Assembly: GCA_022561875.1 (NCBI GenBank)
Contig: JADFQJ010000025.1
Location: 1 to 36,006, forward strand
DNA length: 36,006 bases
Origin: Bacteroidota bacterium
GTDB taxonomy: Bacteria > Bacteroidota > Bacteroidia > Bacteroidales > VadinHA17
Direction: 5' to 3'
This document shows positions 1,928 to 25,543 of the stretch, one piece after another (the stretch's first letter is position 1; the number at the start of each line of letters is the position of its first letter). Position numbers and translations under genes: made by a program. A model generated the notes under the pieces. That model was not told where the DNA came from. It made no database searches and saw nothing but the letters and a program-made list of their open reading frames with translations.

Positions 1928-3643
1928 ATGGAACAAAGTATCAATCTTGGATGGATAGATTACTCCATCATGCTTATTTACTTCGTGTTCGTGCTCGGTA
2001 TCGGATGGACACTAAAACGGTACATGAAATCATCCACTGATTTTCTTGAAGCCGGCAAATCGCTACCTGCCTGGATAACAGGATTAGCATTTATTGCTAC
2101 AAACCTGGGAGCGTTAGAGGTTATCGGTATGGCTGCTTCGGGAGCCAAATATGGTATTACCACTGTTCACTTTTACTGGATAGGCGCTATACCGGCAATG
2201 ATATTCCTGGCTATTTTTATGATGCCGTTCTATTATGGTTCAAAAGCCCGCTCGGTTCCCGAGTACCTGAAATTGAGGTTTGATGAAAAAACAAGAGGTT
2301 TCAATGCCGTTTCATTTGCCATAATGACCATCTTTGCTTCAGGCATTTCAATGTATGCTTTGGCAATGCTAATGGAGGTTCTTCTGGGTTGGAATTTCAA
2401 TTTCAGCCTGTTTCTGTCTGCCGCGATAGTTCTCGTTTATATATACCTCGGAGGACTGACATCAGCGATTTATAATGAGGTGTTACAGTTCTTTTTAATT
2501 GTAGTTGGTTTCCTTCCTTTGGCAATTATTGCTTTAATAAGTATCGGAGGATGGGAAGGATTGAAATCAAGTCTGGATGTTGTAGCAGTCAACAATGGTT
2601 TTGAAGCCGGAGCATACACAGAAACCTGGCAACATATGAGTAAACCCGAATCAAATCCTATGGGTGTGGAATGGATGGGCATTATTGTGGGCCTTGGTTT
2701 TGTACTTTCATTCGGCTACTGGTGCACCAACTTCCTTGTAGTGCAAAGGGCAATGGCTGCAGATTCGATCACTTCAGCCCGGAAAACACCACTTATCGGA
2801 GCACTTCCTAAAATGTTTATTCCTTTCCTTGTTATTTTACCGGGAATGATAGCTATTGCATTAACCAGCAACCCGGACAGCGGATTCGAACTTCCTGTAA
2901 AAGGAGAAGCTTATGATTATGATAAGACAATTCCAATGATGCTCGGATATTACTTCCCAACCGGTGTACTGGGACTAGGACTTACAGCTCTTATGGCGTC
3001 ATTTATGTCAGGTATGGCCGGCAATGTTACTGCTTTTAATACGGTATTCACTTATGATATTTATCAAGCCTATATTAACAAAAGTAAATCTGACAAACAT
3101 TACCTGCGGGTAGCTCAGCTTACTACGGTGTTCGGAGTACTTGTCAGTATTCTTGCTGCATATGTAGCAAATCTGTTTAATAACCTGATGGATTTCCTCC
3201 AGTTAATATTTGCCTTTATCAATGCTCCGCTGTTTGCCACTTTCCTGCTTGGGATGTTCTGGAAACGAGGCACAGGCCATGGTGCATTTTTCGGATTACT
3301 GTCAGGAACATTCGCTGCCGGTTTACACCATGGACTAACTGTTCCTGAAGGTGCAATGACGCTGGTAAAGGGTGGTTGGCTGGGAACAGTAGTGCATACA
3401 TATCCAAGTGAAATGGCACAAAACTTCTGGACAGCCATTTATGCTTTTACAGCCTGTTTAGTGATGACAATTATTATTTCAATCTTAACAAAACAGCTAA
3501 AAACAGATGACCAGCTCAAAGGACTGGTTTATTCACTTACACCAAGAAAAAGAATAGAAGGGCTAAAATGGCATGATAACCCTGTTACTCTGGCAATTGT
3601 TGTAGGTGTTATTGCAATTATTTTAAGTATAATATTCTGGTAA
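1928..3643 (+). CDS. Sodium:solute symporter (SSS family)
   Basis: A 571-residue inner-membrane protein predicted to couple sodium uptake to import of a sugar or other small solute. About 13-14 hydrophobic segments run along the whole length, starting with IDYSIMLIYFVFVLGIGWTL. The family-type segments GLAFIATNLGALEVIGMA (TM2 region) and NFLVVQRAMAA (residues ~270-280, the QR-A-A motif after TM7) are visible. The length fits SLC5/SSS proteins. It is followed after 11 bp by a small two-helix membrane protein, probably in the same transcript. The nearby aldose epimerase, sugar kinase and hydrolase relic suggest a sugar substrate, but the substrate cannot be read from sequence. The IS66-like element ends about 70 bp upstream and may have separated this gene from its former promoter. 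Confidence 0.9.
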   Translation: MEQSINLGWIDYSIMLIYFVFVLGIGWTLKRYMKSSTDFLEAGKSLPAWITGLAFIATNLGALEVIGMAASGAKYGITTVHFYWIGAIPAMIFLAIFMMPFYYGSKARSVPEYLKLRFDEKTRGFNAVSFAIMTIFASGISMYALAMLMEVLLGWNFNFSLFLSAAIVLVYIYLGGLTSAIYNEVLQFFLIVVGFLPLAIIALISIGGWEGLKSSLDVVAVNNGFEAGAYTETWQHMSKPESNPMGVEWMGIIVGLGFVLSFGYWCTNFLVVQRAMAADSITSARKTPLIGALPKMFIPFLVILPGMIAIALTSNPDSGFELPVKGEAYDYDKTIPMMLGYYFPTGVLGLGLTALMASFMSGMAGNVTAFNTVFTYDIYQAYINKSKSDKHYLRVAQLTTVFGVLVSILAAYVANLFNNLMDFLQLIFAFINAPLFATFLLGMFWKRGTGHGAFFGLLSGTFAAGLHHGLTVPEGAMTLVKGGWLGTVVHTYPSEMAQNFWTAIYAFTACLVMTIIISILTKQLKTDDQLKGLVYSLTPRKRIEGLKWHDNPVTLAIVVGVIAIILSIIFW

Positions 3644-3933: not shown

Positions 3934-5886
3934 TTAAAACTTAACAATCTTCTTCACATAAGATTTATCATCTTTACGGATACGGAGAAAGTAAAGACCG
4001 GCAGGCAGATGACTGCCATCCAGGGTGAATTCATTATGTTCTGAAACAATTTTAATAAGCTCTTTACCTGAAATATCCAGCAGGGATATTTCTTTAAGGC
4101 CTGGCTGGCCAGGAAAGATCACGTTCAGACTGGTTGAAAAAGGATTTGGAAACACCCTGATGTTTCTTTCTTCAAATTCTTTATACTCAGGTATATAGCT
4201 GATCGACGATACATGGTTAAGAATCCAGTTAGCAGGATCAACCTCAAGTGAAGTAATATCATATGGAACATACATATTGAATGTCTGTATACTCTGTTCC
4301 TGGAAAACCCTGATTGTAGTATCACCGCCCTGGTAATTCAGCCTGAATTCCACAGAAGTCTTAAAAGAAGGTGTATTGTTTGATGAAGTGGTAATTGTTG
4401 AACGGATGCTGACAGTATCCCCATCCCTGCTCCACTCAATACCAAACCTGGGAAATCCGCTTCCATAGTACCACTGGTCAAAAAACCACGAAAAATCACG
4501 ACCGGATATATCTTCCAGTACACCCCTGAAATCGTCACCGGTGGCTACACTGTCTGCAAATTCCTGCTGGAATTCCCTGAGCGTTGTAAAAAAGAGGGAG
4601 TCATTATCCAGCTCAAACCTGATCATATGAATGATAGCCGCTCCTTTCTTATAGGATAAAGCGTAGGAAAATATTCTACTGACATCTGAAGCTTCATCAA
4701 ACGGGATATAAACACTGCCATCAGGCAAACCCATTGCCCAATTATGAGAATTATCCATCCAATCGCCGGCATAAGTCTGCGACCGGAGGTTCTGGTATGC
4801 CAGATACTCGGTATAAGAAGCAAAACCTTCATTGATCCAGATATCCTGCCATGTTGCACAGGTTACATTATCACCGAACCATTGGTGACCCAGTTCGTGA
4901 GCAACAAGGTAAAATGAAAAATTATCAATAGTAGTCATAGTCTGATGTTCCATAGCCCCACCCATTGGAGCAACGCAGTGCCCGTATTTTTCATTTGCAA
5001 AAGGATACAGGGAATACAAATCGGAGAATAATTCTATCAGAGTGGCAGTTTCGTCAATCAGCTCCCTGTTCTGCTCCAGGTATGCTGTGTTATCATAAAT
5101 AAAATTCTGTATCAGAATAGAATCATCCAAACCTGCCGGATGAGCATAAATGCTGTAATCCTGGTAATCAGCAACAGTCATTGAGATAAGGTAATAGTCG
5201 GTTGGATAGTAACTTCTCCATTCATACCTTGTTTTTCCTCCTTCAACAGGCACAGTATTTATTAGTCTGCCATTTGAACCTGCCATCAGACTGTCAGGCA
5301 CAGTTATATCTATCATCACAGAATCAGCTTTATCCTGAAGATCCTGTTTACACGGAAACCAGTCCTTCGCATTGAATGGTTCAGAGAGGGTCCATGTAAC
5401 AGAATTGCCCCAGTCATTATCAATGTCTGATGTCATCCCTGAAAAGAAACCTTCTTCAGGGACGGTACCGTGATAAAATATTTTTACCCTGAAAAATTCA
5501 CCGGCCGGAACCGGGTATCCCATATTAACTGTTATCAGGTCATTGGAATGAATAAAGCTTAATGATGTTGATCCGGTCAGTACTGAATCAACGGTAAGAT
5601 CAGTGATCAACTCAACAACGAAACTACCCAGGGAAGCAACATTAGAAACAGCGCCGATTTCAGTACTGCCTTTAATAAAAGTTGAGGTATTGTCAGCTTC
5701 CAGATCAAGGTGATAATATTTAACATCATAATCCTGTAATGCATCAATTGTTACTGCTGGATAAATTTTACTGTGAGGAAAACCTGCCCTGAGGCATTTT
5801 CCCTCAAACCCGGCGATATCATATTCCTGGGCAATAAGAAGGATATTGCTCAGAAGTAAGAAAATGAATAAAACAGATTTTTTCAT
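3934..5886 (-). CDS. Secreted M1 family aminopeptidase with T9SS sorting tail
   Basis: A 650-residue zinc metallopeptidase that removes N-terminal residues from peptides outside the cell. It has a signal peptide (residues 1-19, ending LLIAQ) and an M1 N-terminal beta domain. The substrate-anchoring motif is GGAMEH (309-314) in place of GAMEN. The zinc site is H330-E331-x2-H334 with E353 nineteen residues later. The last ~75 residues, from RVFPNPFSTSLNV to the terminal YVKKIVKF, form a type A Por secretion C-terminal domain, so export by the type IX system is expected. The gene converges with the symporter pair. A heptamer-repeat spacer lies upstream. Confidence 0.92.
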   Translation of the reverse strand: MKKSVLFIFLLLSNILLIAQEYDIAGFEGKCLRAGFPHSKIYPAVTIDALQDYDVKYYHLDLEADNTSTFIKGSTEIGAVSNVASLGSFVVELITDLTVDSVLTGSTSLSFIHSNDLITVNMGYPVPAGEFFRVKIFYHGTVPEEGFFSGMTSDIDNDWGNSVTWTLSEPFNAKDWFPCKQDLQDKADSVMIDITVPDSLMAGSNGRLINTVPVEGGKTRYEWRSYYPTDYYLISMTVADYQDYSIYAHPAGLDDSILIQNFIYDNTAYLEQNRELIDETATLIELFSDLYSLYPFANEKYGHCVAPMGGAMEHQTMTTIDNFSFYLVAHELGHQWFGDNVTCATWQDIWINEGFASYTEYLAYQNLRSQTYAGDWMDNSHNWAMGLPDGSVYIPFDEASDVSRIFSYALSYKKGAAIIHMIRFELDNDSLFFTTLREFQQEFADSVATGDDFRGVLEDISGRDFSWFFDQWYYGSGFPRFGIEWSRDGDTVSIRSTITTSSNNTPSFKTSVEFRLNYQGGDTTIRVFQEQSIQTFNMYVPYDITSLEVDPANWILNHVSSISYIPEYKEFEERNIRVFPNPFSTSLNVIFPGQPGLKEISLLDISGKELIKIVSEHNEFTLDGSHLPAGLYFLRIRKDDKSYVKKIVKF

Positions 5887-6004: not shown

Positions 6005-6472
6005 TTATTTCAACTCATACATTTCAATCAGCAATTTTGCCATGATAGAGTCCCAGATATAGTTTGTGGGACAATCGACCAGGCTATTATCAGGGCTGTA
6101 ACTTTCCCAGTAATTATGATTCGCCGATAGCTGTGTTGTAACGGCAAGTATCATTTTATTCCCAAGTTCAATTGCCAGATCATTATAACCATAGTTCACA
6201 AGTCCGTGGAACACCATATAATCCCAGAGCAGCCACACCGGACCGTTCCATTTGCAGCAATAGTCAACATACGGACTGAACCATGGATCGTCTGCCGCCA
6301 GGGTTGGTTCGCCATATTTTCTCCGGAACTTTCCAGGATCAGTAAGTTTATCGATCAACAGTGATACCTGGACTTCAGAAGCCACACCTGCCCACATTGC
6401 AAGAAACCCTATGATCTCCTGCCTTTTCAGGTCACGTCCCATAAAATTGAATTCATGATTCACTTTATCCAC
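6005..6472 (-). pseudogene. C-terminal relic of an MGH1/trehalase-like glycoside hydrolase
   Basis: A 155-residue open frame resembles the final part of (alpha/alpha)6-barrel glycosidases of the MGH1/GH63/trehalase-like group. The motifs are LKRQEIIGFLAMWAGVAS, YCCKWNGPVWLLWDYMV and YWESYSPDNS. Complete members run to several hundred residues, so most of the catalytic barrel is missing. The frame begins at a weak GTG and is closed by TAA two codons upstream. No matching coding sequence follows in any frame up to 6779. I read it as a 5'-deleted remnant. Family assignment rests on recall of motifs and is moderately sure. Confidence 0.6.
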
Positions 6473-6779: not shown

Positions 6780-9563
6780 TCACTTTGCGTCTTTTACGCA
6801 GCGGAACCCGACGGTAGCATTACGGTCGAAGCCCGGTGAGACCATAAGGAGCATTTGTGTTTTATCAAGCTGTTGCGGACCGCCCTGTACGTACCACCAG
6901 CTTGATGCAGGCTTGTAATAACTTCCCCCGCGAATAATGACAAAATAGTAACTTCCGTTATCATAAACATCATCGGTAAGCTGCCATACATTCCCAACCA
7001 TATCCATAACTTTAAAAGGGCTTTTTCCTTTCGGGAATGTATTAACGGGTGTGGGTCGCCCGAAAGCATTGTTACATTTGGTACCGTGGAATGTATCACC
7101 CCAGGGCCATAACCGCCCATCAGTCCCCTGTGCTGCATACTGCCATTCAATTTCGGTTGGCAGACGTTTGCCGGCCCATTCGGCATAAGCCCGGGCATCT
7201 TCAATACTTACCCATACCACAGGATAGTTAGCCTGCCCTTGCACATACATATTGTTCTCCCAGTGTTTCATGAAATTTGCCGGATATTCAGGCTGATACC
7301 CGGAACTTTCAAGGAATTCATAGAACTTTGAATTGGTAACAGGATATTTATCCATGAAGAACCTGTCAATATGCACCTTGCGCGGCCGAGAATAATCAGG
7401 ATATGGTATAAATTGATCGGGGTTGGTAACTAAAAACTCAAAATCCCCCTCTCCTATTTCTTCCATACCTGCAGGTGATCTTTTAACCGGTTTTGTGGGT
7501 TTCACCTCACTGATCAACCAGGGTTTTCCCGGCTCCATTCCTACCACAACTTCATCCATAAGTTCTTTTTCATCAAACAACTGGATCACTACCTTACCCT
7601 CATACCTTCCGAAAATCTCACTGATCTTTAACTTAACCGGTTTTGGTTCAAACTCTACAGGCTTTTTTTCATACGATGGATCTCCCTTCCATACCAGGAT
7701 CTTTTTTCCTTCTGCAGAATTAATAAAGAGAGAATCACCTCTCAGGCTGACCCCCAGAATATCTGGAAGGCGGGCTACACAATCCACATTTCCTTCCCTA
7801 CGTGAATTCAACCACCCCTTATTAAAGGCTTTCACTTTTACCGGGATCATCCATTCATCGCCTGATTTAACAGGTTCCAGGGCTTCATGGTTCCACAGAC
7901 TGACAAAATGATATCCTTCTTCGGGAACAACTTTAAACAATGGAGCTGACACGCCCTCAGGTATTAAACTAAAAATGGTATATAATGTCTTATTCCTGTT
8001 TTGCCAGCGGTTTACCCATACACTGTCTGTTACTGTCGGGATAAGCGGTCTCCACCGGTCGTTCAGAAACACTGATGAATTTTGCCTGAGGATCATAGTT
8101 GTACGTCCAAGGTATCTGTAATCTTCTTCCATCCATCCGGGACGTCCGGGAGCAAATGTATTTAACTCCGTGCCATAACCATTAAAGAATGAGATTGCCA
8201 CCTCGCGGTGGATCCTTCCCCGGCTAAGCTGACAAACCCTGAAGATGGCAAATTCAGGCTTTATCAGTTTATTCAGATTAAGTGGAGGGGGCATAAAAAT
8301 AGCATCATGAACCCTGCCTGAAATTATACCGGGCATATCTTTCGGTACTGCCATGCCCTCTGAATACATGATCACTCCTTCTTTCACTCCATCGGCTGCC
8401 TCCTGAAGTTTTTTACTGGAACTTCCATGGCAATCCAGTACAACTCCATCAGCGCCTGTGCTCCTGATAAGTCTTGCCATACCTTCATAAGGATCCTCTT
8501 CACGTGTACTCTTGTCCCATGGATTATATTCAATAAAGAATTTTGTGGAATTGCTTTGTGCATACCTTGCAAGTTCCTTAATTTTATCCAATCCCAAAGG
8601 CATATCTTCATACAGATCCCATTGGCTCCTTTCATCGATACCAAGACGGGGCCATGTTGGCCATAAACCGAATACATCATAGCCCCCGAAATATTTTTTC
8701 CCTTCTTCTAAAAATCCGAAAAAATTATACTTCCCTTCAAACCGGTCATAATAATTATGATCCCACGCGAACTGGAGTGTTATAATATATTTGTCCCGTA
8801 TCCATTTCAGATCTTCCCTCTCATAAAGCGAATTATCAAAAGACTCCAGATCGTACAAGTACCTGTCCTGGAACATTAGCTGCATTCCGTTTTGCCAATC
8901 TCCCTTAAAAACATCCGCATAGATTGTATATTCAACATTCCCTCTTGGAGGAACCACAGTTTTATAGCGGTGTTTCTGTGAATCATCGGCAGATGTTCTC
9001 CGGGCAATTGCACAAGCTGAAAGATTATCGTCAAGTTCAATCGAACCATATCCCATTTCCCAGGCGTTATCTGGCAAAATAACTCCAACCGGTCCGAACC
9101 CCGGTCTGAATATCTTTGTACGGGCCAAAGCCCATTGACCTGTCCCTGTAATATAAATATGGTCATCAACTGCCCCGAAAGGTACCACATTCGATATCTC
9201 AATAGTATCGACAGATATATTCTTAATTGTAAGAACCGCTTTCCAACCCGGTTCAAAACCGGGAACAGGTTCCAGGTTACCCTGTATACTACTTCCAAGC
9301 TGGTATCTGAACAACTCTCCTTCCTTTATCACTTTTGCATCGCCGGAAAGAAACTTTTCATTATTAATCTCCAGGCTGAACAAAGACACAGGAATATTTG
9401 GATTTTGCTTATTACCATTTTCCAGTAAAATAGCAACAACAGAAAGACCTTTAGACTGGTCGATTTCAATATTCCTGATTGTTTGAGCGGCTCCTGTTGT
9501 AATATTAACCAGAACTATTATAATAAAACAAAAAATTCCGGGGATAATCCTGAATACTTTCAT
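6780..9563 (-). CDS. Secreted barrel-like protein fused to a SUMF1 (FGE-sulfatase) domain
   Basis: A 927-residue exported protein with a signal peptide (MKVFRIIPGIFCFIIIVL..., cut near TTGAAQ). A beta-rich region comes first. A central part follows (about 250-520) with barrel-like segments: FFIEYNPWDKST, TGADGVVLDCHG and VIMYSEGMAV. A C-terminal SUMF1/formylglycine-enzyme fold (about 700-925) carries MDKYPVTNSKFYEFLESSG, GKRLPTEIEWQYAA, MVGNVWQLTDD, IIRGGSYY and VGFRCV. The two copper-binding cysteines of true FGEs are not seen in the segment after RGGS, so sulfatase activation is unlikely. The central region resembles a glycosidase, with Asp in VLDCHG and Glu in YSEG as candidate catalytic residues. 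That role is inference. Neighbours deal with sugars. Confidence 0.8.
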   Translation of the reverse strand: MKVFRIIPGIFCFIIIVLVNITTGAAQTIRNIEIDQSKGLSVVAILLENGNKQNPNIPVSLFSLEINNEKFLSGDAKVIKEGELFRYQLGSSIQGNLEPVPGFEPGWKAVLTIKNISVDTIEISNVVPFGAVDDHIYITGTGQWALARTKIFRPGFGPVGVILPDNAWEMGYGSIELDDNLSACAIARRTSADDSQKHRYKTVVPPRGNVEYTIYADVFKGDWQNGMQLMFQDRYLYDLESFDNSLYEREDLKWIRDKYIITLQFAWDHNYYDRFEGKYNFFGFLEEGKKYFGGYDVFGLWPTWPRLGIDERSQWDLYEDMPLGLDKIKELARYAQSNSTKFFIEYNPWDKSTREEDPYEGMARLIRSTGADGVVLDCHGSSSKKLQEAADGVKEGVIMYSEGMAVPKDMPGIISGRVHDAIFMPPPLNLNKLIKPEFAIFRVCQLSRGRIHREVAISFFNGYGTELNTFAPGRPGWMEEDYRYLGRTTMILRQNSSVFLNDRWRPLIPTVTDSVWVNRWQNRNKTLYTIFSLIPEGVSAPLFKVVPEEGYHFVSLWNHEALEPVKSGDEWMIPVKVKAFNKGWLNSRREGNVDCVARLPDILGVSLRGDSLFINSAEGKKILVWKGDPSYEKKPVEFEPKPVKLKISEIFGRYEGKVVIQLFDEKELMDEVVVGMEPGKPWLISEVKPTKPVKRSPAGMEEIGEGDFEFLVTNPDQFIPYPDYSRPRKVHIDRFFMDKYPVTNSKFYEFLESSGYQPEYPANFMKHWENNMYVQGQANYPVVWVSIEDARAYAEWAGKRLPTEIEWQYAAQGTDGRLWPWGDTFHGTKCNNAFGRPTPVNTFPKGKSPFKVMDMVGNVWQLTDDVYDNGSYYFVIIRGGSYYKPASSWWYVQGGPQQLDKTQMLLMVSPGFDRNATVGFRCVKDAK

Positions 9564-9635: not shown

Positions 9636-10814
9636 TTACCTGGTCATGAATTTATATACAGTTGAATGGGTGTATTTTTCGCCCGGTTTAAGGATTGTTG
9701 ACGGGAAATCAGGCTGATTTGGCGAATCAGGATAATGCTGGGTTTCAAGGCAAAAACCGTAATGCTTTAAATAAACAACATCATTTTTCCCAGTAACCGA
9801 TCCGTCAAGAAAATTACCGGTATAGAACTGCACACCCGGCTCGGTTGAATAAACCTCCATTACCCGTCCACTTTCGGGTTCGGTTACCGAAGCAATTAGC
9901 CCTAATGCATCAGCATCATTGTTAACTACATAGCAATGATCGTAACCTCCGGGGACATCATCAATTCGTGCACCTATTTTCATAGCGGTATTAAAATCCA
10001 AAGGGGTTCCCTCAACCACCGGTAGATCACCGGTTGGAATTAAACTTTCATCAACAATAACATATCTGCCAGCATCGATCATCACCTCATGACCAAGCAT
10101 ATCCTGCTTACAGGCAGTCAGGTTAAAATAGCTGTGATGAGTAAGGTTAACCGGACCGGCTTTATCAGTAACTGCTTCGTAATCAATCTTCAGCTCATTG
10201 TCATTGGTTAGAGTATATGTAACGGTTACATTCAGGTTTCCCGGGTAACCTTCTTCCATATCTTCACTCAAATAAGTAAGTTTTAGTGCCGAACCATTTG
10301 CAGTCTCAACCGGTTCAGCATCCCATACTTTTTTATCAAATCCTTCCAGACCACCATGAAGATGGTTCTCACCGTTATTCACAGCCAGGGTATACTCTTT
10401 TCCATCTACTGTGAATTTTCCTTTAGCGATGCGGTTTCCATAGCGACCCACAATTGCCCCAAAATACGGATGTTCGCCGAGGTAACCTTCGAGATTATCA
10501 AATCCAAGTACCACATCCTCGAAATTTCCATTTTTATCGGGTACAATGATTGAAGTTACAATGCCTCCAAAATTCGTGATTTTCACGATCATTCCCTGGT
10601 TGTTTTTCAATGTAAATAAATCAACCTCGATATCACTTTTTGTTGTTCCGAATGACTCTCTTGTTATTTCCATTTGTTCTTTGATTTTATTTTTTTCTTT
10701 AACAGTCTGCCCTGAATTGCATCCAACAAATATCAGGGTTAATAAAAAAACGATAATGCCGGTCAGAATCTTTCTATCTGACAGCAAATTAAAAGAAAAA
10801 GTTTTCATATTCAT
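9636..10814 (-). CDS. galM: Aldose 1-epimerase (galactose mutarotase), lipoprotein
   Basis: A 392-residue enzyme that interconverts alpha and beta anomers of aldoses such as galactose or glucose. An N-terminal lipoprotein signal ends in LIFVGC, so the mature protein is probably membrane-anchored outside the cytoplasm. Family motifs seen are GRYGNRIAKGKF, NHLHGG (substrate-binding His), NLTHHSYFNL (catalytic His) and FCLETQHYPDSPNQP (catalytic Glu). The length is normal for Bacteroidota secreted GalM. It lies 72 bp downstream of the SUMF1 fusion gene's start on the same strand and is transcribed first, so the two may form one unit. The 290-bp region upstream (10815-11104), divergent from the small lipoprotein gene, shows no other gene. 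Confidence 0.93.
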   Translation of the reverse strand: MNMKTFSFNLLSDRKILTGIIVFLLTLIFVGCNSGQTVKEKNKIKEQMEITRESFGTTKSDIEVDLFTLKNNQGMIVKITNFGGIVTSIIVPDKNGNFEDVVLGFDNLEGYLGEHPYFGAIVGRYGNRIAKGKFTVDGKEYTLAVNNGENHLHGGLEGFDKKVWDAEPVETANGSALKLTYLSEDMEEGYPGNLNVTVTYTLTNDNELKIDYEAVTDKAGPVNLTHHSYFNLTACKQDMLGHEVMIDAGRYVIVDESLIPTGDLPVVEGTPLDFNTAMKIGARIDDVPGGYDHCYVVNNDADALGLIASVTEPESGRVMEVYSTEPGVQFYTGNFLDGSVTGKNDVVYLKHYGFCLETQHYPDSPNQPDFPSTILKPGEKYTHSTVYKFMTR

Positions 10815-14521: not shown

Positions 14522-15589
14522 TCACTCTTCCTGTTGTTTTCTCATTTTTCTTTCTTTTTTCTTACTTCCTGAGAATAGTCTGATAAGCCAGCTATGCTCA
14601 ATAGCATCGGAAGCTTCCTGAATCTCAATAATTCCACGGTTCAGGTTTCCAAGGGTTATAGAAATGCTGTCAGAGAAAGCGCTGTCAGTCAGCAACTTAT
14701 TTATAAAACCTTTCCCTGTGTTTATCTGGTTAGTTATTTCGGCCAGGTTTTTTGTTGCCTCCCTTGTACTGGCGCTTGTATATGCAATATTTTGAAGAAA
14801 GGAGGTATCGGTAAAAGCTTTTCCGAAAATCCCTTCACCCTGGTTTATTCTTCTGGCAATATTCACCAGGTTTTCTGATGCAATGGCCAGGTTCTCACTT
14901 ACCTGGTGCAATTCCTTTACCAAAGAAGTATCAGACAGCAGATGACCAATTAAACCATATTCATTGACGATCTGGTCGGTGATAGTTGCAAAGTTATCTG
15001 TCAGTTCGGCTGTATTGGCGCTAATCCGATCAAGATTTTGTGAAAAAACGGTGTCTGCGAATATCTGTCCGAATATTCCTTCTCCCCTGTTCACTTTTTC
15101 TGTAATATCGACCAGGTTTCGGGTAATAGCAGTAGTATTCCTTGAGGATTTTTCCAGTTCGCGCATTATATCTGCAATTTCAATACCCTGGCCGGTAGGA
15201 AGAATATCTCCATCTTCAATAATTTCCATGTCAAAAGAGCCCGGCATTATGTTCACCACCTTATTTCCGAGTAATCCTGTAACTGTAATTACTGCTTTTG
15301 AATCTTTCCTGATAAATTTTCCAACATTCTTATCAAGCATAAAATCAACCAGAATTGAGGTATCATTAATAATGGTAATATTGCTAACTGCCCCGATATC
15401 AATACCTGCGAACCTGACATTACTACCTACCTGCAACCCTTGTACATCGGTAAATATTCCCCTGGCCATCAGAGAAGTTCCAAAAATACTTTGCCGAACT
15501 CCGATTGTATATATACCCAGAATCAGGATCAGTATGCCGATACTGACAAACAGGCCAAGCTTAATGGATTTGTTTCTGTTCATTTGCAT
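14522..15589 (-). CDS. mlaD: MlaD/MCE-domain lipid-transport protein
   Basis: A 355-residue substrate-binding subunit of an Mla-type lipid ABC transporter that moves phospholipid between membranes. One N-terminal membrane anchor is followed by an MCE domain (GIFTDVQGLQVGSNVRFAGI, GLLGNKVVNIMPG; residues ~40-120). A helical region (~150-320) has four similar units centred on VNRGEGIFGQIF, VNEYGLIGHLL, INQGEGIFGKAF and INTGKGFINKLL. Such helical repeats often build a tunnel or needle in MCE proteins. A clear GGAGG precedes the start and the gene begins 2 bp after mlaF, so the two are co-translated. No MlaB or MlaC is present, as usual outside Proteobacteria. Confidence 0.9.
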   Translation of the reverse strand: MQMNRNKSIKLGLFVSIGILILILGIYTIGVRQSIFGTSLMARGIFTDVQGLQVGSNVRFAGIDIGAVSNITIINDTSILVDFMLDKNVGKFIRKDSKAVITVTGLLGNKVVNIMPGSFDMEIIEDGDILPTGQGIEIADIMRELEKSSRNTTAITRNLVDITEKVNRGEGIFGQIFADTVFSQNLDRISANTAELTDNFATITDQIVNEYGLIGHLLSDTSLVKELHQVSENLAIASENLVNIARRINQGEGIFGKAFTDTSFLQNIAYTSASTREATKNLAEITNQINTGKGFINKLLTDSAFSDSISITLGNLNRGIIEIQEASDAIEHSWLIRLFSGSKKKERKMRKQQEE

Positions 15590-15591
15590 AG

Positions 15592-16332
15592 TTATTCCTC
15601 CTTTTTAATGAAAAATGAGCTTATCCAGGGATCATCCGATGATTGTAATTGTTCGAATGTACCTTCTGCATATATTAATCCATCGCGGATTATAAGCATC
15701 CTGTCGGAAGTCATCCTGACACAATTCATATCATGAGTAATAATAATAGATGTCACTTTATTGCTTTTTCGCACATCCAGTATCATTTCATTTATCTCCA
15801 TTGAAGTTGCCGGATCAAGGCCTGTTGTAGGTTCATCATACAAGATGATCTCCGGCTTTTTGATCAGAGTCCGCGCTAATCCTACCCGTTTCTTCATTCC
15901 ACCTGACAGTTCTGCCGGCATTTTATCTATCGCATCCACCAATCCAACACTTTCAAGAACCTCTTCCACCCTTTCACTAATCACCGTTTTCGAACCTAAA
16001 AAAGTACTTCGTTTAAGCGTAAATAAAAGATTCTCCCTAACCGACATGGAGTCGTACAATGCAGAACCCTGAAATACAAACCCTATTTTTTTTCTGATAA
16101 ATTCCAGGTCTTTTAGCGAAGGGTTCATCATATCTTTACCCAAAACATTGATCTTTCCCGAATCGGGCTGCATCAATCCAACCATACATTTTATCAGGAC
16201 TGTTTTTCCGATGCCGGATCTTCCACACACTGCAAGATTTTCTTCTCTTGGAAGATGAAGATTTATACCTTTCAGTATCTCTTTACCATCAAAAGTTTTC
16301 TTCAGATTCTCTATTTCAATAACATAATCCAT
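15592..16332 (-). CDS. mlaF: MlaF-type ABC transporter ATP-binding protein
   Basis: A 246-residue ATPase powering the Mla lipid transporter at the inner membrane. Walker A is GRSGIGKT, the Q-loop is GFVFQGSALYDSMSV, the signature is LSGGMKKRVGLARTL, Walker B is IILYDEPTTGLD and the switch His is in SIIITHDMNC. The sequence ALYDSMSVRENL is characteristic of MlaF/Mkl proteins. The length is normal. Its usual partner mlaE is 298 bp away, separated by an AT-rich repeat block, whereas mlaD follows directly. Confidence 0.93.
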   Translation of the reverse strand: MDYVIEIENLKKTFDGKEILKGINLHLPREENLAVCGRSGIGKTVLIKCMVGLMQPDSGKINVLGKDMMNPSLKDLEFIRKKIGFVFQGSALYDSMSVRENLLFTLKRSTFLGSKTVISERVEEVLESVGLVDAIDKMPAELSGGMKKRVGLARTLIKKPEIILYDEPTTGLDPATSMEINEMILDVRKSNKVTSIIITHDMNCVRMTSDRMLIIRDGLIYAEGTFEQLQSSDDPWISSFFIKKEE

Positions 16333-16388
16333 AAACCCTGATAAATTAAAAAATCAATTATTATTTGTTAATAAAGTCAAGCATTCTC

Positions 16389-16602
16389 GTAAATAAAGTA
16401 CCAAATGGTAAATAACAAATAGCAAATTACAAATATCAAATAAACTCCAATTAACAAATATCAAAAATTCAAAACAGAATTAACCGATATTTAATTTTTA
16501 CGCTTTTCTTCTTTTGAACATTGGGATTTGATATTTATTTGTTATTTGGTGCTTGTTTTTTGTAATTTTTAATTTCTAATTTTTAATTTTTATTTAAACT
16601 TT
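16389..16602. repeat. AT-rich foldback of CAAATAAC/CAAATATC words between mlaE and mlaF
   Basis: The left half (16400-16475) repeats AAATAACAAAT, AAATTACAAAT and AACAAATATCAAA. The right half (16525-16602) carries the same words on the other strand (TTTGATATTTATTTG, TTATTTGGTGC, TGTAATTTTTAATTTC). The 298-bp gap holds no gene. The word spacing is mostly 7-8 bp. Confidence 0.75.
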
Positions 16603-16630
16603 CTACTTTATAAACGGACTCTATTTAGCA

Positions 16631-17416
16631 TCAATATATTATATGTGTAACCTGCACAGCTATAAGGTCGATCAGAAAAACAGCCAGCGAGGCGCTTACA
16701 ACAGCGGTATTGGCTGCTTTACCAACTCCTTCAGTTCCGTAACCGGCAAAATACCCCTTATAACAACCTATGATCCCGATCATAAACCCGAAGAAAACAG
16801 TTTTTGCCACGGCAGGGAACAAATCGGAAAAGTGCAAAATATCAAATACATCAAAAATGAAAAGTGTGACAGATATATTACCATGAATATTAACTGCCAT
16901 AAAGCTGCCTGCAAGTGCAATTGCATCAGCATACAATACAAGTAACGGTACCATTAATGTTGTTGCCAGTACTCGTGTAACAACCAGGTAATTTATGGGG
17001 TTAACACCTGAAACTTCCATAGCATCGATCTGCTCGGTAACTCTCATAGATCCAAGAACAGCGCCAAACTGTGAAGCTATTTTACCGGCACAGATCAGTG
17101 CAGTAATAACAGGTCCTATTTCTGTGACTATCGAAACAGAAATCATTCCGGGCAACCATGCTTCAGCGCCAAATTCCATTAATACCGGACGTGATTGCAA
17201 TGTCATCACCAGGCCTAAAATAAACCCTGTTAAACCTATGAGTCCCAAAGATTTGGCTCCCACTATATATGATTGGTACAGAAATTCATTGAATTCAAAC
17301 GGGGGGCGGAAAAGCTCTTTGAAAAACCTCCCGGTAAACCAGGTAAGTTCCCCTACCTCGATAAAAAGATCTATAACAGGGTCAGGTAACCAATTATATG
17401 TGTGTCGTAGTTTCAA
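16631..17416 (-). CDS. mlaE: MlaE-type lipid ABC transporter permease
   Basis: A 261-residue inner-membrane permease of the Mla lipid transport system. An amphipathic N-terminal helix is followed by five or so hydrophobic segments. The MlaE signature is seen in PGMISVSIVTEIGPVITAL, GKIASQFGAVLGSMRVTEQI and the following DAMEVSGVNPINYLVV. The length is normal. It should pair with MlaF and MlaD downstream. The gene starts 190 bp from the divergent DPP4-like gene. Confidence 0.93.
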   Translation of the reverse strand: MKLRHTYNWLPDPVIDLFIEVGELTWFTGRFFKELFRPPFEFNEFLYQSYIVGAKSLGLIGLTGFILGLVMTLQSRPVLMEFGAEAWLPGMISVSIVTEIGPVITALICAGKIASQFGAVLGSMRVTEQIDAMEVSGVNPINYLVVTRVLATTLMVPLLVLYADAIALAGSFMAVNIHGNISVTLFIFDVFDILHFSDLFPAVAKTVFFGFMIGIIGCYKGYFAGYGTEGVGKAANTAVVSASLAVFLIDLIAVQVTHIIY

Positions 17417-19863: not shown

Positions 19864-21444
19864 TTAATAATTTAGTATCTCATCTGCTTGTTCCTTATCA
19901 CAATCCATTATGTAGGGGATACCACTTATTTCACTTGCTTCCTGTGTTAAAGCAGATATATCATTTCTGTCAATGTACTCTAATGAAAATTTTCTTGAAC
20001 CTGCCATAATCTGTCTTAGTCCCTGGTGAAGTCTTTTCATATAAGTGTAAAGTCCCATAGCTCCTGTAGGAATATCATCGAATTTCTCACCGAACATAAT
20101 TTTAAGTTCGGGCGCTGTTTCAAATATTTCATCTTTTGTTCGTCCGAAGCGTGATACATATACGGGCAAATCACCTTGTTTTATTGCCAGCCCTATGTTT
20201 TTGCCAACCATTGCAGCAGCCAACGGCGCTCTTGCCATACCTATCATTTTAAAATACGGGGCTCCCAATGCCAATCCTTTAAACATCTGATCCTCCATTG
20301 TAATTCCACTGGCAAATGCAGCATTAGGCACATACTTCCCTTTCTTTGCCAATTTATCGAGGTAATTATATAACAATGACCAAAGTTCAATTGGAGGCAC
20401 ACCCCATTCATTCATCATTCTCCAGGGGCTCATTCCTGTTCCGCCACCTGCTGCATCCACAGTAAGCAGGTCAATTTTTGCTTCAGATGCGCATCTTACC
20501 GCCAAAGCCAGATCGGACGGCCTGTAGGCTCCTGTTTTCAGAAATATATATTTCGCACCGGCAGCCCTTAATACTTCCACCCTTTTCATAAAACTATCAA
20601 TTTCAACCATGCCTAATCTTGAATGCCTTTCAAATTCATGGAAAACATGTCTGTTAAAAGCATCGATAACATTCGGGTCGTGAGGATCAGGTAATACAAT
20701 ATATCCCCTCTCCTTTAACATTTGTGCACGTTTCAGATCTTTTATCTTTACCTCGCCCCCGATATCTTTTGCCCCCTGTCCCCATTTCAGCTCGACAATT
20801 TCAACACCCAGTTTTTCTATTGCATATTCCTGAGTGGCAAGGTTTGTGTCTTCTACGTTAGCCTGCAGAACAATACCACCATAGCCATCCTGTTGCCACC
20901 TTTGATAAATTTTGACCCGGTTTTCCATTTGAGGAGAATGGATGATTCTTCCGTTTTTAATAGTTGACTCGGGATCCATACCGCATACATTCTCACCAAT
21001 GGTTAGTATTATGCCAGAAATAGCAGCTCCAACAGCAAGTCCTTCCCAGTTGTTTTTTGCAATGTTTGTTGATCCGAGACCAGGAATAACAACCGGCATT
21101 TTTAGTTTAATACCCTTATCATGCCCTAATGTTTGTTCAATATTAACATTTTCAAAAAGAGCTAAGTCCGAATCCGCCTCAATCCCATGCGCACCTCTGC
21201 AGGTGCCAAGTATTGTAAAATGGGACAAATCCACAGGATACTCTTTTTCAGATGCTGAAGTAATTATTCCAAAAGGTTGCGGATAAATAACTTCCACACC
21301 TCTGTAAGATGATTTACCAATATCACACATACCAATACAACCATCTATACAGGTAGCACACATTCCACTTATTGGAACAATGGCATCTTCTGTTCTGTTC
21401 TTGGTTAAAGTTGCTGCTGATGCGTTAATTTTTCCGTATTTCAT
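19864..21444 (-). CDS. FMN-binding glutamate-synthase-like subunit without glutaminase
   Basis: A 526-residue cytoplasmic protein with the FMN-binding TIM barrel of the glutamate synthase large subunit. Motifs are GLGSTNIAKNNWEGLAVGAA, EIVELKWGQGAKDIGGEVK, LLTVDAAGGGTGMSP and APYFKMIGMARAPLAAAM. It lacks the N-terminal glutaminase domain and the C-terminal beta-helix of GltB, and I see no 3Fe-4S cysteine triplet after the barrel. Instead the N-terminus has C29-x2-C32-x3-C36-x3-C40, a plausible Fe-S site. It follows the NuoG-like gene by 18 bp and is the last gene of the operon, which suggests it is the catalytic subunit fed by the NuoEFG-like module. The product could be glutamate from ammonia or something else; substrate unknown. 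Confidence 0.85.
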   Translation of the reverse strand: MKYGKINASAATLTKNRTEDAIVPISGMCATCIDGCIGMCDIGKSSYRGVEVIYPQPFGIITSASEKEYPVDLSHFTILGTCRGAHGIEADSDLALFENVNIEQTLGHDKGIKLKMPVVIPGLGSTNIAKNNWEGLAVGAAISGIILTIGENVCGMDPESTIKNGRIIHSPQMENRVKIYQRWQQDGYGGIVLQANVEDTNLATQEYAIEKLGVEIVELKWGQGAKDIGGEVKIKDLKRAQMLKERGYIVLPDPHDPNVIDAFNRHVFHEFERHSRLGMVEIDSFMKRVEVLRAAGAKYIFLKTGAYRPSDLALAVRCASEAKIDLLTVDAAGGGTGMSPWRMMNEWGVPPIELWSLLYNYLDKLAKKGKYVPNAAFASGITMEDQMFKGLALGAPYFKMIGMARAPLAAAMVGKNIGLAIKQGDLPVYVSRFGRTKDEIFETAPELKIMFGEKFDDIPTGAMGLYTYMKRLHQGLRQIMAGSRKFSLEYIDRNDISALTQEASEISGIPYIMDCDKEQADEILNY

Positions 21445-21462
21445 ATTTATATTCTCCTTTAA

Positions 21463-22170
21463 TTATTTAATATTTTCTGTAATATTATTTTTTGATTCTT
21501 CATTATAACATGTTCCGCATTCATATCTTAATCCCATCCAGCAATTATAATTATCTTCATTTGAAATACATGTTGGCTGGAGACTATTATAGCATCCGTT
21601 ACATAAAACACTTTCCGGGTTTTCCCCGTGGCATCTCAGTGTAACTACCGGACAAATATACATGCAAGCGCCACACCTCCTGCAATCATCCGATTTCTCA
21701 TCAAAAGGTGTGGAAATTTGAAGTTTATTTCCCCTGCTCACAAACCCGATAGCTTTTGCCATCATTTGTTCTTCACACATTCTTACACATAATCCACAAT
21801 CTATACAATTCTCCCATTTACCTTTGAACCTTACTTTGTTTAAGCCCATTTTTGAGGCAATATCCTGTAATACTTTGGATGTAGGGCATTGTGATATCAA
21901 CAATTCAAGTATCATCTTTCGGGTTCTTACAACTCTTTCAGATGAGGCATGCACTACAAGACCCTCCTCAACCGGATATGTACAGGAAGTTACCAGTTTG
22001 GTCCTGTCACCTGTTCCTATCTCCACTATACAGAGACGGCAACCTCCCCATGGTGACAAGCCTTCATGGTAACATAGTGTTAGAATTTCTAAACCAAGAA
22101 ACTTTGCTGCATCAAGTATTGTGAAATCTTCAGGTGCATTAAAACTTATCCCGTCAATCTTTATTTTCAT
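21463..22170 (-). CDS. NuoG-N/HydA-N-like iron-sulfur subunit (no H-cluster)
   Basis: A 235-residue electron-transfer subunit. A plant-type 2Fe-2S domain has C33, C44, C47 and C63 (CYHEGLSPWGGCRLC). A linker resembling the NuoG/HydA middle domain follows. Two 4Fe-4S motifs come next: CIDCGLCVRMC (122-132) and CRRCGACMYIC (163-173). Seven more cysteines lie in the tail (C180-C221). The protein stops where an FeFe-hydrogenase H-cluster domain would begin, so it is not a hydrogenase. Its place between the NuoF-GltD fusion and the GltB-like subunit suggests it wires electrons between flavin sites. Confidence 0.88.
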   Translation of the reverse strand: MKIKIDGISFNAPEDFTILDAAKFLGLEILTLCYHEGLSPWGGCRLCIVEIGTGDRTKLVTSCTYPVEEGLVVHASSERVVRTRKMILELLISQCPTSKVLQDIASKMGLNKVRFKGKWENCIDCGLCVRMCEEQMMAKAIGFVSRGNKLQISTPFDEKSDDCRRCGACMYICPVVTLRCHGENPESVLCNGCYNSLQPTCISNEDNYNCWMGLRYECGTCYNEESKNNITENIK

Positions 22171-22230
22171 GTATGTTATATGTTATTGCTTGTTGTTACT
22201 TTTAATTATTAGCACGTTAATACATTTCTC

Positions 22231-22262
22231 CATTATTCCATCATTCCACTATTCCACTTCTT
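22231..22262. repeat. ATTCCAT/CATTCCA heptads inside the oxidoreductase operon
   Basis: Four imperfect units with the ATTCCA core at a 7-8 bp step lie in the 102-bp spacer between the NuoF-GltD fusion and the NuoG-like gene, next to TTATATGTTATTGCTTGTTG words. Confidence 0.7.
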
Positions 22263-22272
22263 GTCTCTAAAT

Positions 22273-25200
22273 TTACACTTTTACTTTTTCAAGACTCTCT
22301 AAAAACATCTTACCATCTTTCGTTTCAAGATCACACCGCAGACATCTTTTTGCTTCCTTAATTGCTTGTTCTTCAGTTAATCCCTGATTTACCTCCATTA
22401 AGTTGTACTTTCTCTTTTCAGAAGATAGAAGAGACATTTCTGACCGTTTGGCTGATAATAATTCCTCCAGTTCTTCGTCCGAAAACTCGATAGGTTCAAT
22501 ATATCTTGAGGGCCGGGTTAGTTTATACTCCCGTTTTACCTCTTTCCCTGTTAAATATTGATCAATAGATTCTGAAGCAATTTTCCCTGCAGCAACAGCA
22601 TCAACAACAGTATTAGGACCGGTAACCACATCTCCACCGGCAAAGATCCCCGGTCTTTTAGTAAGACAGGTTTCCTGGTTAGTTAAGATCGTATCCCATT
22701 TTGAAAATTCGAGTCCTTCATTTTTAAGGAATGAAATATCAGGACTTTCTCTAATGGAAACTATTAATGTATCTAGTTCAACAGTAAATTCGGAACCTTC
22801 TATCGGCACCGGTCTTCTTCTGCCTGATTCATCTACGTCACCTAACCTCATTCTAATGAATTCACAAGCTTTCAGTTTTCCATTACCTGTTATGATTTTT
22901 ATCGGAGCTGTTAGAAATTCGATTTTTATTCCTTCATCTCCGGCACCTTCTACCTCTTCTTTATAAGCAGGTATTTCATCAATGGTTCTCCTGTAGAATA
23001 TTGTTACACTTTCGGGCTTTGTGGCACGTAATGCGCTCCTTGCCGCATCAATCATAGTTACACCTTCCGATGTTTCTGCACGCAATACACGCCTGGCAGC
23101 ATCAACTGCGGTATTACCTCCGCCTATTATCCCTACCCGTTTCCCAAGATCTATTTTCTTCCCAAGATTTAAAGCTGAAAGTGCTTGCATGCCCGGTATT
23201 ACACCATCAATTTCCTCGCCGGGTATATCAAGCTTCAATGATTGATGTGAACCGGTAGCAAGAAATACAGCTCTATAACCCTGATCGAATAAGCTGTCTA
23301 AAGTATAATCTTTACCAAGTGCGGAATTTATTTTCATCTCCATTCCGGCACTTTTAATATAATTGAGATCAGCCTTCAGTATTTCTCTGGGTAACCTATA
23401 TTCGGGTATCCCAAGAGCTAACATACCACCTATTACAGATTCTTTTTCGAATACTGTAACTTCATAACCTTTTTTAGAAAGATAAAAACTGCATGTGAGT
23501 CCTGCAGGACCTGAACCTATAACAGCTACTTTTATACCATTGGTTTTATCAACAGGTTCAGTTGTAGAATATAAATTATTTTCTATTCCATAATCAGTTG
23601 CAAATCTTTTAAGATCCCTTATTGCAACAGGATCCCCGCCATCACCTGCTTTACATTTATATTCACAGGGATGATGGCAAACGCGTGAAAGAACGGAGGC
23701 AAACGGGTTTTCATCTTTAATAACTTCCAGAGCTTCAGTATATTTTTGCATAGCTATCAAAGCAACGTAAACGGGAACATCCGTATTAATCGGACAGGTA
23801 TATTGGCAGGGAGAAGAAATAATTTCCTTACATACAGTCGCTTCACATTTTTTCTTTTCAATATGGTCGATATATTCATTTTTAAAATACCGCAGGGTTG
23901 CCAACACAGGATTAGGTGCAGTTTGACCAAGGCCACACATTGACGCATCTTTAATTACCAGCCCTAATTCTTCAAGTAAAATCAAATCTTCTATTTTACC
24001 ATTTCCTTCCGTGATATTTGTGAGTATCTCATTCATTCTTTGGGTGCCTTCCCTGCATGTTGAACATTTTCCGCAGGATTCTTCCTGCAGGAAATTGGTA
24101 AAATATTTTGCAATGTCGACCATACAGGTATTTTCATCCATCACTATCATACCCCCTGATCCCATAATAGAACCAACTTTGTTCAGGCTCTCATAATCAA
24201 TTGGAAGGTCGAACATTTTTTCCGGTATGCAGCCACCTGAAGGACCACCGGTTTGTATTGCTTTAATTTTTGCTTTTTCTGAAGGACCGCCACCTATATC
24301 ATATACCACCTTATTTATTGTTGTTCCTAAAGGAACCTCAACAAGTCCGGTATTTTTTATCTTTCCAACAAGAGAGAATATTTTTGTTCCAGTGTTACCA
24401 GGTACGCCAACTTTAATATATTCATCTGCCCCATTGCTGATTATTACCGGTACATTCGCAAGAGTTTCCACATTGTTTATGCAAGTAGGATATCCCCAAA
24501 TTCCTTTGTTAACGGGATATGGAGGTCGTTGATTTGGTTGACCCATTTTCCCTTCAATGGATTTAATAAGAGCAGTTTCTTCGCCACAAACAAAAGCTCC
24601 TGCACCACGAACAATTTCAATATCAAAATCAATACCAGTACCAAGAATATTTTCCCCAAATATGCCAATATCACGCGCCTGACGAATTGCAATTATTGCA
24701 TGTTTAATGGCTAACGGATATTCACTGCGTACATATATGAAGCCTTGCGTGGCGCCAATAGCTATCCCGGCAATTATCATACCTTCAATAATCAGATGAG
24801 GATTGCCTTCTAAAAGACTACGATCCATATAAGCGCCCGGATCACCTTCATCTGCATTGCATACGATGAATTTTTTTGTCGAATTATTATTTGATTTTAG
24901 TGCGGCTTCCCATTTTATGCCTGTTGGAAACCCTGCTCCCCCACGCCCCCTGAGCTTAGATATTTTAATCTCCTCAATTATCCAATCGGGATTTGGATCG
25001 GATATTACCTTTTCAAATGCTGCATACCCTCCGTCATTGATATAGTTGTAGATCCTTATTGGGTCAATTCTCTGGTTTTTTCCTAAAATTGTGCGGGTTT
25101 GATTCTTGAAAAAAGGAATATCTTGTTGCGAATCGTAACTCTTCACATCACCCGGCTGCCTGTAGAGCATCTCTTCAATAACCTTTCCGTTAATTGCCGC

Positions 25201-25500
25201 ATCAATAATTTTCGGCACATCTTCTATATTTAATTTCGGGTATACATTATTGCCGGGTTCAACTATAATGAAAGGATCCATTTCGCAAAAACCTAAACAA
25301 CCTGTTATTCTGAGTAAAATTTTATCATGAAGACTATGCTCGATTATGTAACGTTTAATCATACGCATGATGTCATTCGATCCGCTTGCCTGCCCCCCTG
25401 TGCCTGCACATAACACCAGACAAGGTCTTTTCACCCCGGATTCAATCATAATGAGTTTTCGGAAATCGATAAAATCTTCAATAGATGAGATTCTTTTCAT
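22273..25500 (-). CDS. NuoF-GltD fusion flavoprotein (NADH/NAD(P)H oxidoreductase)
   Basis: A 1075-residue fusion of two flavoenzymes. Residues 1-110 form a thioredoxin-like 2Fe-2S domain (C27, C31, C68, C72; G36 stands where the second CxxxxC cysteine is usual). Residues ~135-550 are NuoF/HydB-like: GRGGAGFPTG (185-194), CNADEGDPGAYMDR, GAGAFVCGEETAL, and 4Fe-4S C476/C479/C482/C522. Residues ~560-1000 are like the glutamate synthase small subunit: Cys C565, C569, C608, C612, C616; FAD site GSGPAG (662-667); NAD(P) site GGGNTA. The C-terminus ends with a Cys-poor tail. It should oxidise NADH and/or NADPH and pass electrons to its partners. Two flavins with many clusters are compatible with electron bifurcation, not proof of it. 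An 18-residue tandem duplication lies at 800-835. Confidence 0.9.
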   Translation of the reverse strand: MKRISSIEDFIDFRKLIMIESGVKRPCLVLCAGTGGQASGSNDIMRMIKRYIIEHSLHDKILLRITGCLGFCEMDPFIIVEPGNNVYPKLNIEDVPKIIDAAINGKVIEEMLYRQPGDVKSYDSQQDIPFFKNQTRTILGKNQRIDPIRIYNYINDGGYAAFEKVISDPNPDWIIEEIKISKLRGRGGAGFPTGIKWEAALKSNNNSTKKFIVCNADEGDPGAYMDRSLLEGNPHLIIEGMIIAGIAIGATQGFIYVRSEYPLAIKHAIIAIRQARDIGIFGENILGTGIDFDIEIVRGAGAFVCGEETALIKSIEGKMGQPNQRPPYPVNKGIWGYPTCINNVETLANVPVIISNGADEYIKVGVPGNTGTKIFSLVGKIKNTGLVEVPLGTTINKVVYDIGGGPSEKAKIKAIQTGGPSGGCIPEKMFDLPIDYESLNKVGSIMGSGGMIVMDENTCMVDIAKYFTNFLQEESCGKCSTCREGTQRMNEILTNITEGNGKIEDLILLEELGLVIKDASMCGLGQTAPNPVLATLRYFKNEYIDHIEKKKCEATVCKEIISSPCQYTCPINTDVPVYVALIAMQKYTEALEVIKDENPFASVLSRVCHHPCEYKCKAGDGGDPVAIRDLKRFATDYGIENNLYSTTEPVDKTNGIKVAVIGSGPAGLTCSFYLSKKGYEVTVFEKESVIGGMLALGIPEYRLPREILKADLNYIKSAGMEMKINSALGKDYTLDSLFDQGYRAVFLATGSHQSLKLDIPGEEIDGVIPGMQALSALNLGKKIDLGKRVGIIGGGNTAVDAARRVLRAETSEGVTMIDAARSALRATKPESVTIFYRRTIDEIPAYKEEVEGAGDEGIKIEFLTAPIKIITGNGKLKACEFIRMRLGDVDESGRRRPVPIEGSEFTVELDTLIVSIRESPDISFLKNEGLEFSKWDTILTNQETCLTKRPGIFAGGDVVTGPNTVVDAVAAGKIASESIDQYLTGKEVKREYKLTRPSRYIEPIEFSDEELEELLSAKRSEMSLLSSEKRKYNLMEVNQGLTEEQAIKEAKRCLRCDLETKDGKMFLESLEKVKV
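22996..23103 (-). repeat. In-frame 54-bp tandem duplication inside the GltD-like domain
   Basis: Two 54-bp units (23050-23103 and 22996-23049) encode DAARRVLRAETSEGVTMI and DAARSALRATKPESVTIF. Ten of 18 residues are identical, placed directly after the GGGNTAV pyridine-nucleotide motif. The reading frame is kept. Confidence 0.85.
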
Positions 25501-25543
25501 ATTCCTTTTCCTTAATATTTATCAGCGAATTGCTAAATTATTT

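Follow-up and report, generated by a model that had tools for sequence, protein, structure and literature searches.

Glycosidases of the amylase type, such as the neopullulanases and maltogenic amylases of glycoside hydrolase (GH) family 13 in clan GH-H, are built from a (beta/alpha)8 barrel followed by a beta domain, and in retaining enzymes of this fold the catalytic Asp lies after strand 4 and the catalytic Glu after strand 5. In GH129, GH101, GH31 and GH36, a beta-sandwich stands before the barrel. The SUMF fold is found in human FGE, in which Cys336 and Cys341 bind copper, in SUMF1 and SUMF2, and in GldK/PorK, CarF and Treponema variable protein 1 (Tvp1), for which we know of no FGE reaction. 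To our knowledge there is neither an FGE domain in GH129, GH101, GH31 or GH36 nor a fusion of GldK/PorK, CarF or Tvp1 with a glycosidase-like barrel. Here, a gene at 6780..9563 on the minus strand of a 36,006-nucleotide stretch (the window) of contig JADFQJ010000025.1 from a VadinHA17 bacterium of the Bacteroidales (assembly GCA_022561875.1) was analyzed. Its family, widespread and apparently undescribed, combines an amylase-like barrel with an FGE-like domain. In the parts available of the full-text literature matches listed, from searches aimed at the fusion and at ribose loci, no description of a barrel-FGE fusion was found.

The family separated cleanly into two types, B and A, and the window gene was of type B. 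The reading favored here, to which about an even chance is given on sequence comparison, predicted models and gene neighborhoods, is that the members are secreted retaining exo-glycosidases with an obligatory FGE-like domain, type B releasing galactose and type A releasing ribose. Taken by itself, the assignment of the barrel protein to the glycosidases is very probable.

The gene, located in the open reading frame listing and by family search, is a single intact frame with an ATG start and 927 codons for 927 amino acids, and the domains below are all given in minus-strand coordinates. The N-terminus (residues 1-26, 9486..9563) is hydrophobic and signal-peptide-like, with a low-confidence helix at residues 8-23 in the AlphaFold2 model, which suggests that the protein is exported, either secreted or periplasmic; no Por secretion-system C-terminal tail was found on it by Pfam. 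It is followed by a beta-sandwich (residues 27-220, 29-220 in the model; 8904..9485) that was present in type B only according to the model and the family alignment, by the (beta/alpha)8 barrel (residues 250-500; 8064..8816), by a beta domain C-terminal to the barrel (residues 501-676, 515-676 in the model; 7536..8063), and by the FGE/SUMF1-like domain (residues 690-927; 6783..7496). A preliminary description of this gene had recognized the barrel and the SUMF1 domain and had overlooked the N-terminal sandwich and the beta domain. The whole-protein AlphaFold2 model, computed from 62 family sequences, had a mean pLDDT of 90.5 and a pTM of 0.86. The barrel appeared as eight strand/helix units at residues 260-500 (strands at 260-265, 297-301, 341-345, 373-375, 398-401, 415-418, 439-445 and 464-468), with pLDDT values of 62-98 per ten-residue block, and it was obtained again (pLDDT 88.1) when residues 221-640, comprising the barrel and most of the beta domain, were folded separately.

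According to the models, the barrel fold is clearly not new and is of the amylase type. By VIA comparison the closest solved fold was 1jf5 (Z 23.2, 330 aligned residues, 3.2 A), and other amylase-type entries, including neopullulanase and maltogenic amylases, were tied or close (Z 20-23, about 300-345 aligned residues, 7-16% identity in the rows listed). The beta domain up to about residue 600 lay within the stretch aligned with the amylases. In sequence, however, the barrel is not assignable to GH13, and the window protein further differs from GH13 enzymes by the added FGE domain and N-terminal sandwich. When 62 family barrels were searched against Pfam, no row had an E below 0.06, and the 11 families listed at E up to 10 included neither Alpha-amylase (PF00128) nor the GH129, GH101, GH36 and GH31 profiles, with one Melibiase_C row from one member (E 0.065). 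Ten diverse members gave FGE-sulfatase and one sub-threshold row in Pfam and nothing else, NCBIfam gave no family match for the barrel in 11 members, and a barrel profile matched Protein Data Bank sequences only at chance level (best E 0.014, a designed protein). Thus, of the earlier suggestion of a possibly new glycoside hydrolase, the barrel was upheld by structure prediction and no family match was found at sequence level, whereas the fold itself matched a known type.

Foldseek also matched the whole protein to glycosidases with a sandwich before the barrel. A Zobellia 3,6-anhydro-D-galactosidase, belonging to GH129 by the title of the second-ranked entry, was ranked first by Foldseek, so that GH129 held ranks 1 and 2, and GH31 and GH36 entries were interspersed among FGE entries. 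The GH129, GH101, GH31 and GH36 rows had E values of about 1e-13 to 3e-16, but TM-scores of only about 0.24-0.32 and 8-13% identity, and none of these families had a Pfam sequence match. They were absent from the 50 VIA rows listed, which is not evidence against likeness. The GH129 profile PF11308 matched 0 of 296 Bacteroidota genomes, but the controls matched nowhere either, so this search is uninformative on GH129.

Two acidic residues of the barrel stand out as candidate catalytic residues, as the preliminary description had proposed from the motifs VVLDCHG and MYSEG. Asp377 (8433..8435), the putative nucleophile, lies just after strand 4, and Glu402 (8358..8360), the putative acid/base, just after strand 5; the ten-residue blocks containing them had a pLDDT of 79. 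Each was conserved in 92 of 94 members across three phyla, and the two exceptions, L045 and L047, had both replaced.

The gene was common close to its own lineage and scattered beyond it. In a set of 99 genomes of relatives (its own included), a match was found in 67, many of them to the FGE domain only; by reading of the search rows, the gene itself was present in 47 of the 58 genomes that share its genus or family (in G019 and G030 as fragments only) and in 2 of the 40 that belong to different families within the order. Searching another 295 Bacteroidota genomes with a profile of the barrel alone gave 10 carriers. When public genomes were scanned, the best 80 of 120 relatives provided 79 loci, which came from Bacteroidota, Acidobacteriota, Pseudomonadota and a single KSB1 bin. 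Type B proteins have about 925 residues and the N-terminal sandwich, and type A proteins, mostly of 720-800 residues, lack it, with just 40-70 residues across its range in the family alignment. One genome (G035) carried both types (L123 and L157).

The two types differed far more in the barrel than in the FGE domain. Within type B, median identity was 61.5% for the barrel and 62.5% for the FGE domain (741 pairs), and within type A it was 72.4% and 70.3% (1431 pairs). Between types, the barrel fell to 22.8% against 46.2% for the FGE domain (2106 pairs). At a matched FGE identity of 50-55%, barrels were 56.5% identical within type B (76 pairs) and 21.2% identical between types (299 pairs). This gap suggested that the barrel was remodelled at the split of the types, or that two old barrels share a younger common FGE domain, and domain shuffling is a possible cause. 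In a tree of FGE domains (62 rows, quick method), A and B each formed one group (support 99 and 98) and were set apart jointly by a branch whose support was only 36, so a single origin of their FGE domains is not established.

The FGE-like domain showed a standard SUMF fold, in agreement with the preliminary description. Pfam matched the window protein to FGE-sulfatase (PF03781) alone (residues 716-924, E 9.4e-39, 134 bits against a cut-off of 23.3), and VIA aligned it with CalU17, SUMF2 and FGE at Z of about 23-24, with 30-33% identity over about 215-220 residues. The absence of the copper-type cysteine pair, also claimed earlier, held for the whole family. The human FGE mutants C336S and C341S (2aft and 2afy in the fold-search listing) give the pair a C-x4-C spacing; the window domain has only Cys830 and Cys922, and C-x4-C was found in 0 of 92 family domains. 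Judged by sequence, the domain therefore cannot act as an FGE through the known cysteine pair, and it differs from FGE, SUMF1 and SUMF2 also in its fusion to a barrel. A stand-alone FGE-like protein of 273 amino acids (L115:1052-1870), 49% identical to the window FGE domain over residues 727-866, was the best-scoring relative without a barrel in the relatives search.

It had been proposed that the FGE fold serves here as a binding module, and an ordinary carbohydrate-binding or lectin-like add-on to an independent glycosidase would accord with the other SUMF-fold proteins that are not FGE enzymes, of which PorK, Tvp1 and CarF appeared among the VIA rows for this domain. The distribution of the domain makes this fairly unlikely. 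Of 110 distinct near-complete barrels, a set partly gathered with full-length queries, 107 shared their frame with a full-length FGE domain, and the three exceptions were a gene leaving its contig within the FGE domain (L025), one split by an in-frame stop (L141) and one broken in frame (L008). All 11 barrels from the barrel-only profile, that of the own genome included, had the domain, ten in frame and one in a stop-split copy. Between types with different presumed sugars, moreover, the FGE domain was twice as conserved as the barrel. Its near-constant presence, its higher conservation between types and its failure to change in step with the presumed sugar argue that it is probably an integral part of the enzyme.

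Gene neighborhoods were compared for the 85 of 111 distinct family genes with enough flanking sequence (34 type B and 51 type A), counting neighbors within 8 kb; neighbors were named by one-probe phmmer matches above 80 bits, and Pfam or NCBIfam was used to verify representatives only. At least one of galM, galK and galT was near 22 of 34 type B loci and near 1 of 51 type A loci (L072). Conversely, a ribokinase, GRP-type transporter, ADP-ribosylglycohydrolase or nucleoside hydrolase was near 36 of 51 type A loci and 0 of 34 type B loci. The Fisher p values, 8e-11 for the gal genes and 3e-12 for the ribose-type genes, are descriptive only, because the relatives are not independent and a single block beside dnaA gives 8 of the 12 galK cases. 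The galT genes of L150 and L146, the galK of L156 and the ribokinases of L080 and L123 passed NCBIfam cut-offs; the galK of L150 and the galM genes of L150 and the window were below equivalog cut-offs, with both galM genes above the subfamily cut-off.

Among type B loci, galM stood directly upstream of the barrel gene in the window and in L036, L164, L167, L168, L169, L170 and L153, and divergently in L161. In L150, galT-galK-galM lay upstream and LacI downstream; L146 and L147 carried galT with MGH1-like hydrolases, and in L156 and seven other loci a convergent galK stood beside dnaA. In the window, the galM-type aldose 1-epimerase gene (PF01263, 324 bits; 9636..10814, minus strand; by Pfam, NCBIfam and genome search) is 72 bp upstream of the barrel gene on the same strand and was the sole aldose epimerase found in the genome. 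An APH-fold kinase gene (PF01636; 11371..12519, plus strand) is retained next to galM and the barrel gene in the genus relatives L036 and L170. In the same two relatives the gene immediately downstream of the barrel gene encodes an MGH1/GH63-like hydrolase of 717-718 amino acids; in the window, Pfam and comparison with relatives identified a 155-amino-acid C-terminal remnant of it (6005..6472, minus strand). An SSF sodium:solute symporter (PF00474, by Pfam and NCBIfam) is encoded at 1928..3643 on the plus strand. The earlier naming of galM, a symporter and a kinase as neighbors was thus borne out, except for the label NahK-like, as NCBIfam gave no match for the kinase.

The ribose-type neighbors of type A were found in 30 of 43 loci in Acidobacteriota, 4 of 5 in Pseudomonadota and 2 of 3 in Bacteroidota. 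L123 and L155, with SusC, SusD, a ribokinase-type kinase, a GRP-type transporter and Pfam-confirmed ADP-ribosylglycohydrolases, resemble the rus ribose-scavenging locus of Bacteroides; we know of no barrel-FGE protein in the rus locus of B. thetaiotaomicron. On an annotated Sphingopyxis plasmid the order was TonB receptor, ribokinase, family relative (type A by its length and by its missing sandwich, with the ribokinase directly upstream), arabinofuranosidase-domain protein and CoA transferase. Type A loci with a CoA transferase near the ribokinase were L057 and L081 (both Paraglaciecola), L080, and L172 (Sphingopyxis), and by reading of the matches an HpcH/CitE-like gene was present in L057, L081 and L080. 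At the CoA-transferase loci, the type A substrate is perhaps a riboside bearing an organic acid. Another type A locus (L078:765-7544) had an upstream run of MGH1-like, GH13, DUF2961 and GH18 genes. Two candidate links were dropped: galE, for which the probe was closer to dTDP-glucose dehydratase and which was left out of the galM/galK/galT counts, and a fructan connection, since GH32 was near 3 of 79 loci (two Pfam-confirmed) and DUF2961 in 6 of 109, and the galactose and ribose links were far stronger.

Based on these neighborhoods, galactose is somewhat favored as the sugar of type B, and ribose is held with similar modest confidence for type A. The single galM of the window's genome, beside the barrel gene, and the lack of any GH36 or GH27 profile match in that genome also count in favor of the proposal. 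An alpha linkage is moderately probable. For mucin and plant oligosaccharides, put forward earlier as targets, nothing was found in support. In the mechanism proposed, the protein would be secreted or periplasmic and act as an exo-glycosidase, with the active site in the barrel, where Asp377 as nucleophile and Glu402 as acid/base would work by double displacement with retention, as in amylase-type barrels. Type B enzymes, that of the window included, would free galactose for use by galM, a kinase and the other steps of galactose metabolism, and type A enzymes would free ribose, or another sugar used by ribokinase, for ribose metabolism. The FGE-like domain would be a fixed part of the enzyme, which most likely completes or gates the sugar-binding site or holds a feature common to both substrates.

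A number of findings weigh against this proposal. As to mechanism, the agreement of the two acidic residues with GH13 placement is one of strand position alone and not of superposition. Two hallmarks of GH13 were missing: alignment column 375, two positions ahead of the nucleophile, held Val/Ile/Met or Asn in place of the expected Arg, and the Asp conserved after strand 7 had no counterpart, no Asp at 438-456 being common to both types. Profile comparison (hhalign) with four GH13-type sequences, two of them Pfam-confirmed as Alpha-amylase, gave a probability of 7%, over strands 2-3. In Foldseek with the barrel alone, GH29 alpha-L-fucosidases were listed among the amylases, so the fold cannot name the sugar. 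As to galactose, the window GalM, below the equivalog cut-off, is no proof of this sugar, no gal gene lay within 8 kb in 12 of 34 type B loci, and in view of the dnaA-side block the 22 positive loci stand for far fewer than 22 independent events. In the genome of the window, the one galK was on another contig and no GalT-family match was found, so its galactose route is incomplete or different; three GH2 profile matches lay elsewhere in the genome. As to ribose, no ribokinase was among the annotated neighbors of a Spirosoma relative.

These points leave room for a glycosidase whose type B members free glucose or an unusual hexose in place of galactose, with GalM as a general mutarotase and galK as a chance neighbor. 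The nearest barrel folds are indeed those of glucan enzymes, and MGH1/GH63-like hydrolases were near 9 of 34 type B loci, of which the one checked reached 95 bits with an alpha-glucosidase model, far short of the 625-bit cut-off; the missing GalT family in the own genome would also fit. Against this, galT or galK was near 14 of 34 type B loci in differing arrangements, and we regard another hexose as unlikely.

It is improbable that the barrel is inactive and that the protein as a whole serves as a scaffold or for sugar binding. The amylase-like CD98hc/4F2hc, which is not known for catalysis, was in the VIA list, and L045 and L047 are without both candidate residues. The pair was intact in all other members compared, however, and both types share polar residues near the strand ends (Asp268, Asp310, Arg312, Gln314, Asp350 and Asn461). 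The two divergent proteins themselves, with Glu and Asp (L045:9866-12730) and Glu and Ser (L047:9866-12739) in place of the candidate pair, are possibly non-catalytic. Very improbable is an FGE-like domain that is itself an enzyme, a non-heme-iron or other oxidase supplied with substrate by the barrel: it would suit the NCBI name of two relatives, the high conservation of the domain and its weak EgtB and SenA profile matches, but the C-x4-C pair is missing, the EgtB, OvoA and SenA scores of the window protein were far below the equivalog cut-offs (67 against 360, 39 against 400 and 60 against 420 bits), with ten members similar, and in Pfam searches of the window protein and ten further members FGE-sulfatase was not accompanied by another domain, such as the iron-binding DinB-type domain of EgtB.

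Elsewhere in the genome, four further places with an FGE domain and seven with sulfatase-family matches were found. The window also contains an IS66-type transposase gene (372-1844; DUF6444 and zf-IS66 domains by Pfam) near the symporter gene, and an M1 peptidase gene (3934-5886), whose product is probably a type IX secretion substrate because of its Por secretion-system C-terminal tail (Pfam). Genes for MlaD, an ABC ATPase and MlaE stand in a row at 14522-17416, an ordinary set of lipid transport type, and NuoF-like, NuoE-like, ferredoxin and glutamate-synthase-like genes follow in a row at 19864-26434, perhaps an electron-bifurcating NADH module.

Two annotated relatives of the window protein carry a name that reflects only the FGE domain ("SUMF1/EgtB/PvdO family nonheme iron enzyme") and hides the glycosidase-like barrel. 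It is proposed tentatively that these proteins may form a new glycosidase family, in which an FGE/SUMF fold lacking the C-x4-C pair is integral to the catalytic unit and kept by both types, the barrel has been rebuilt for galactose or ribose, and type A proteins are secreted ribosidases. If so, a glycosidase family would be added for which two sugar specificities are already suggested by the neighborhoods, and the FGE fold would appear in a new role. Few enzymes for extracellular ribose release are known to us, and type A would be a candidate for this function.

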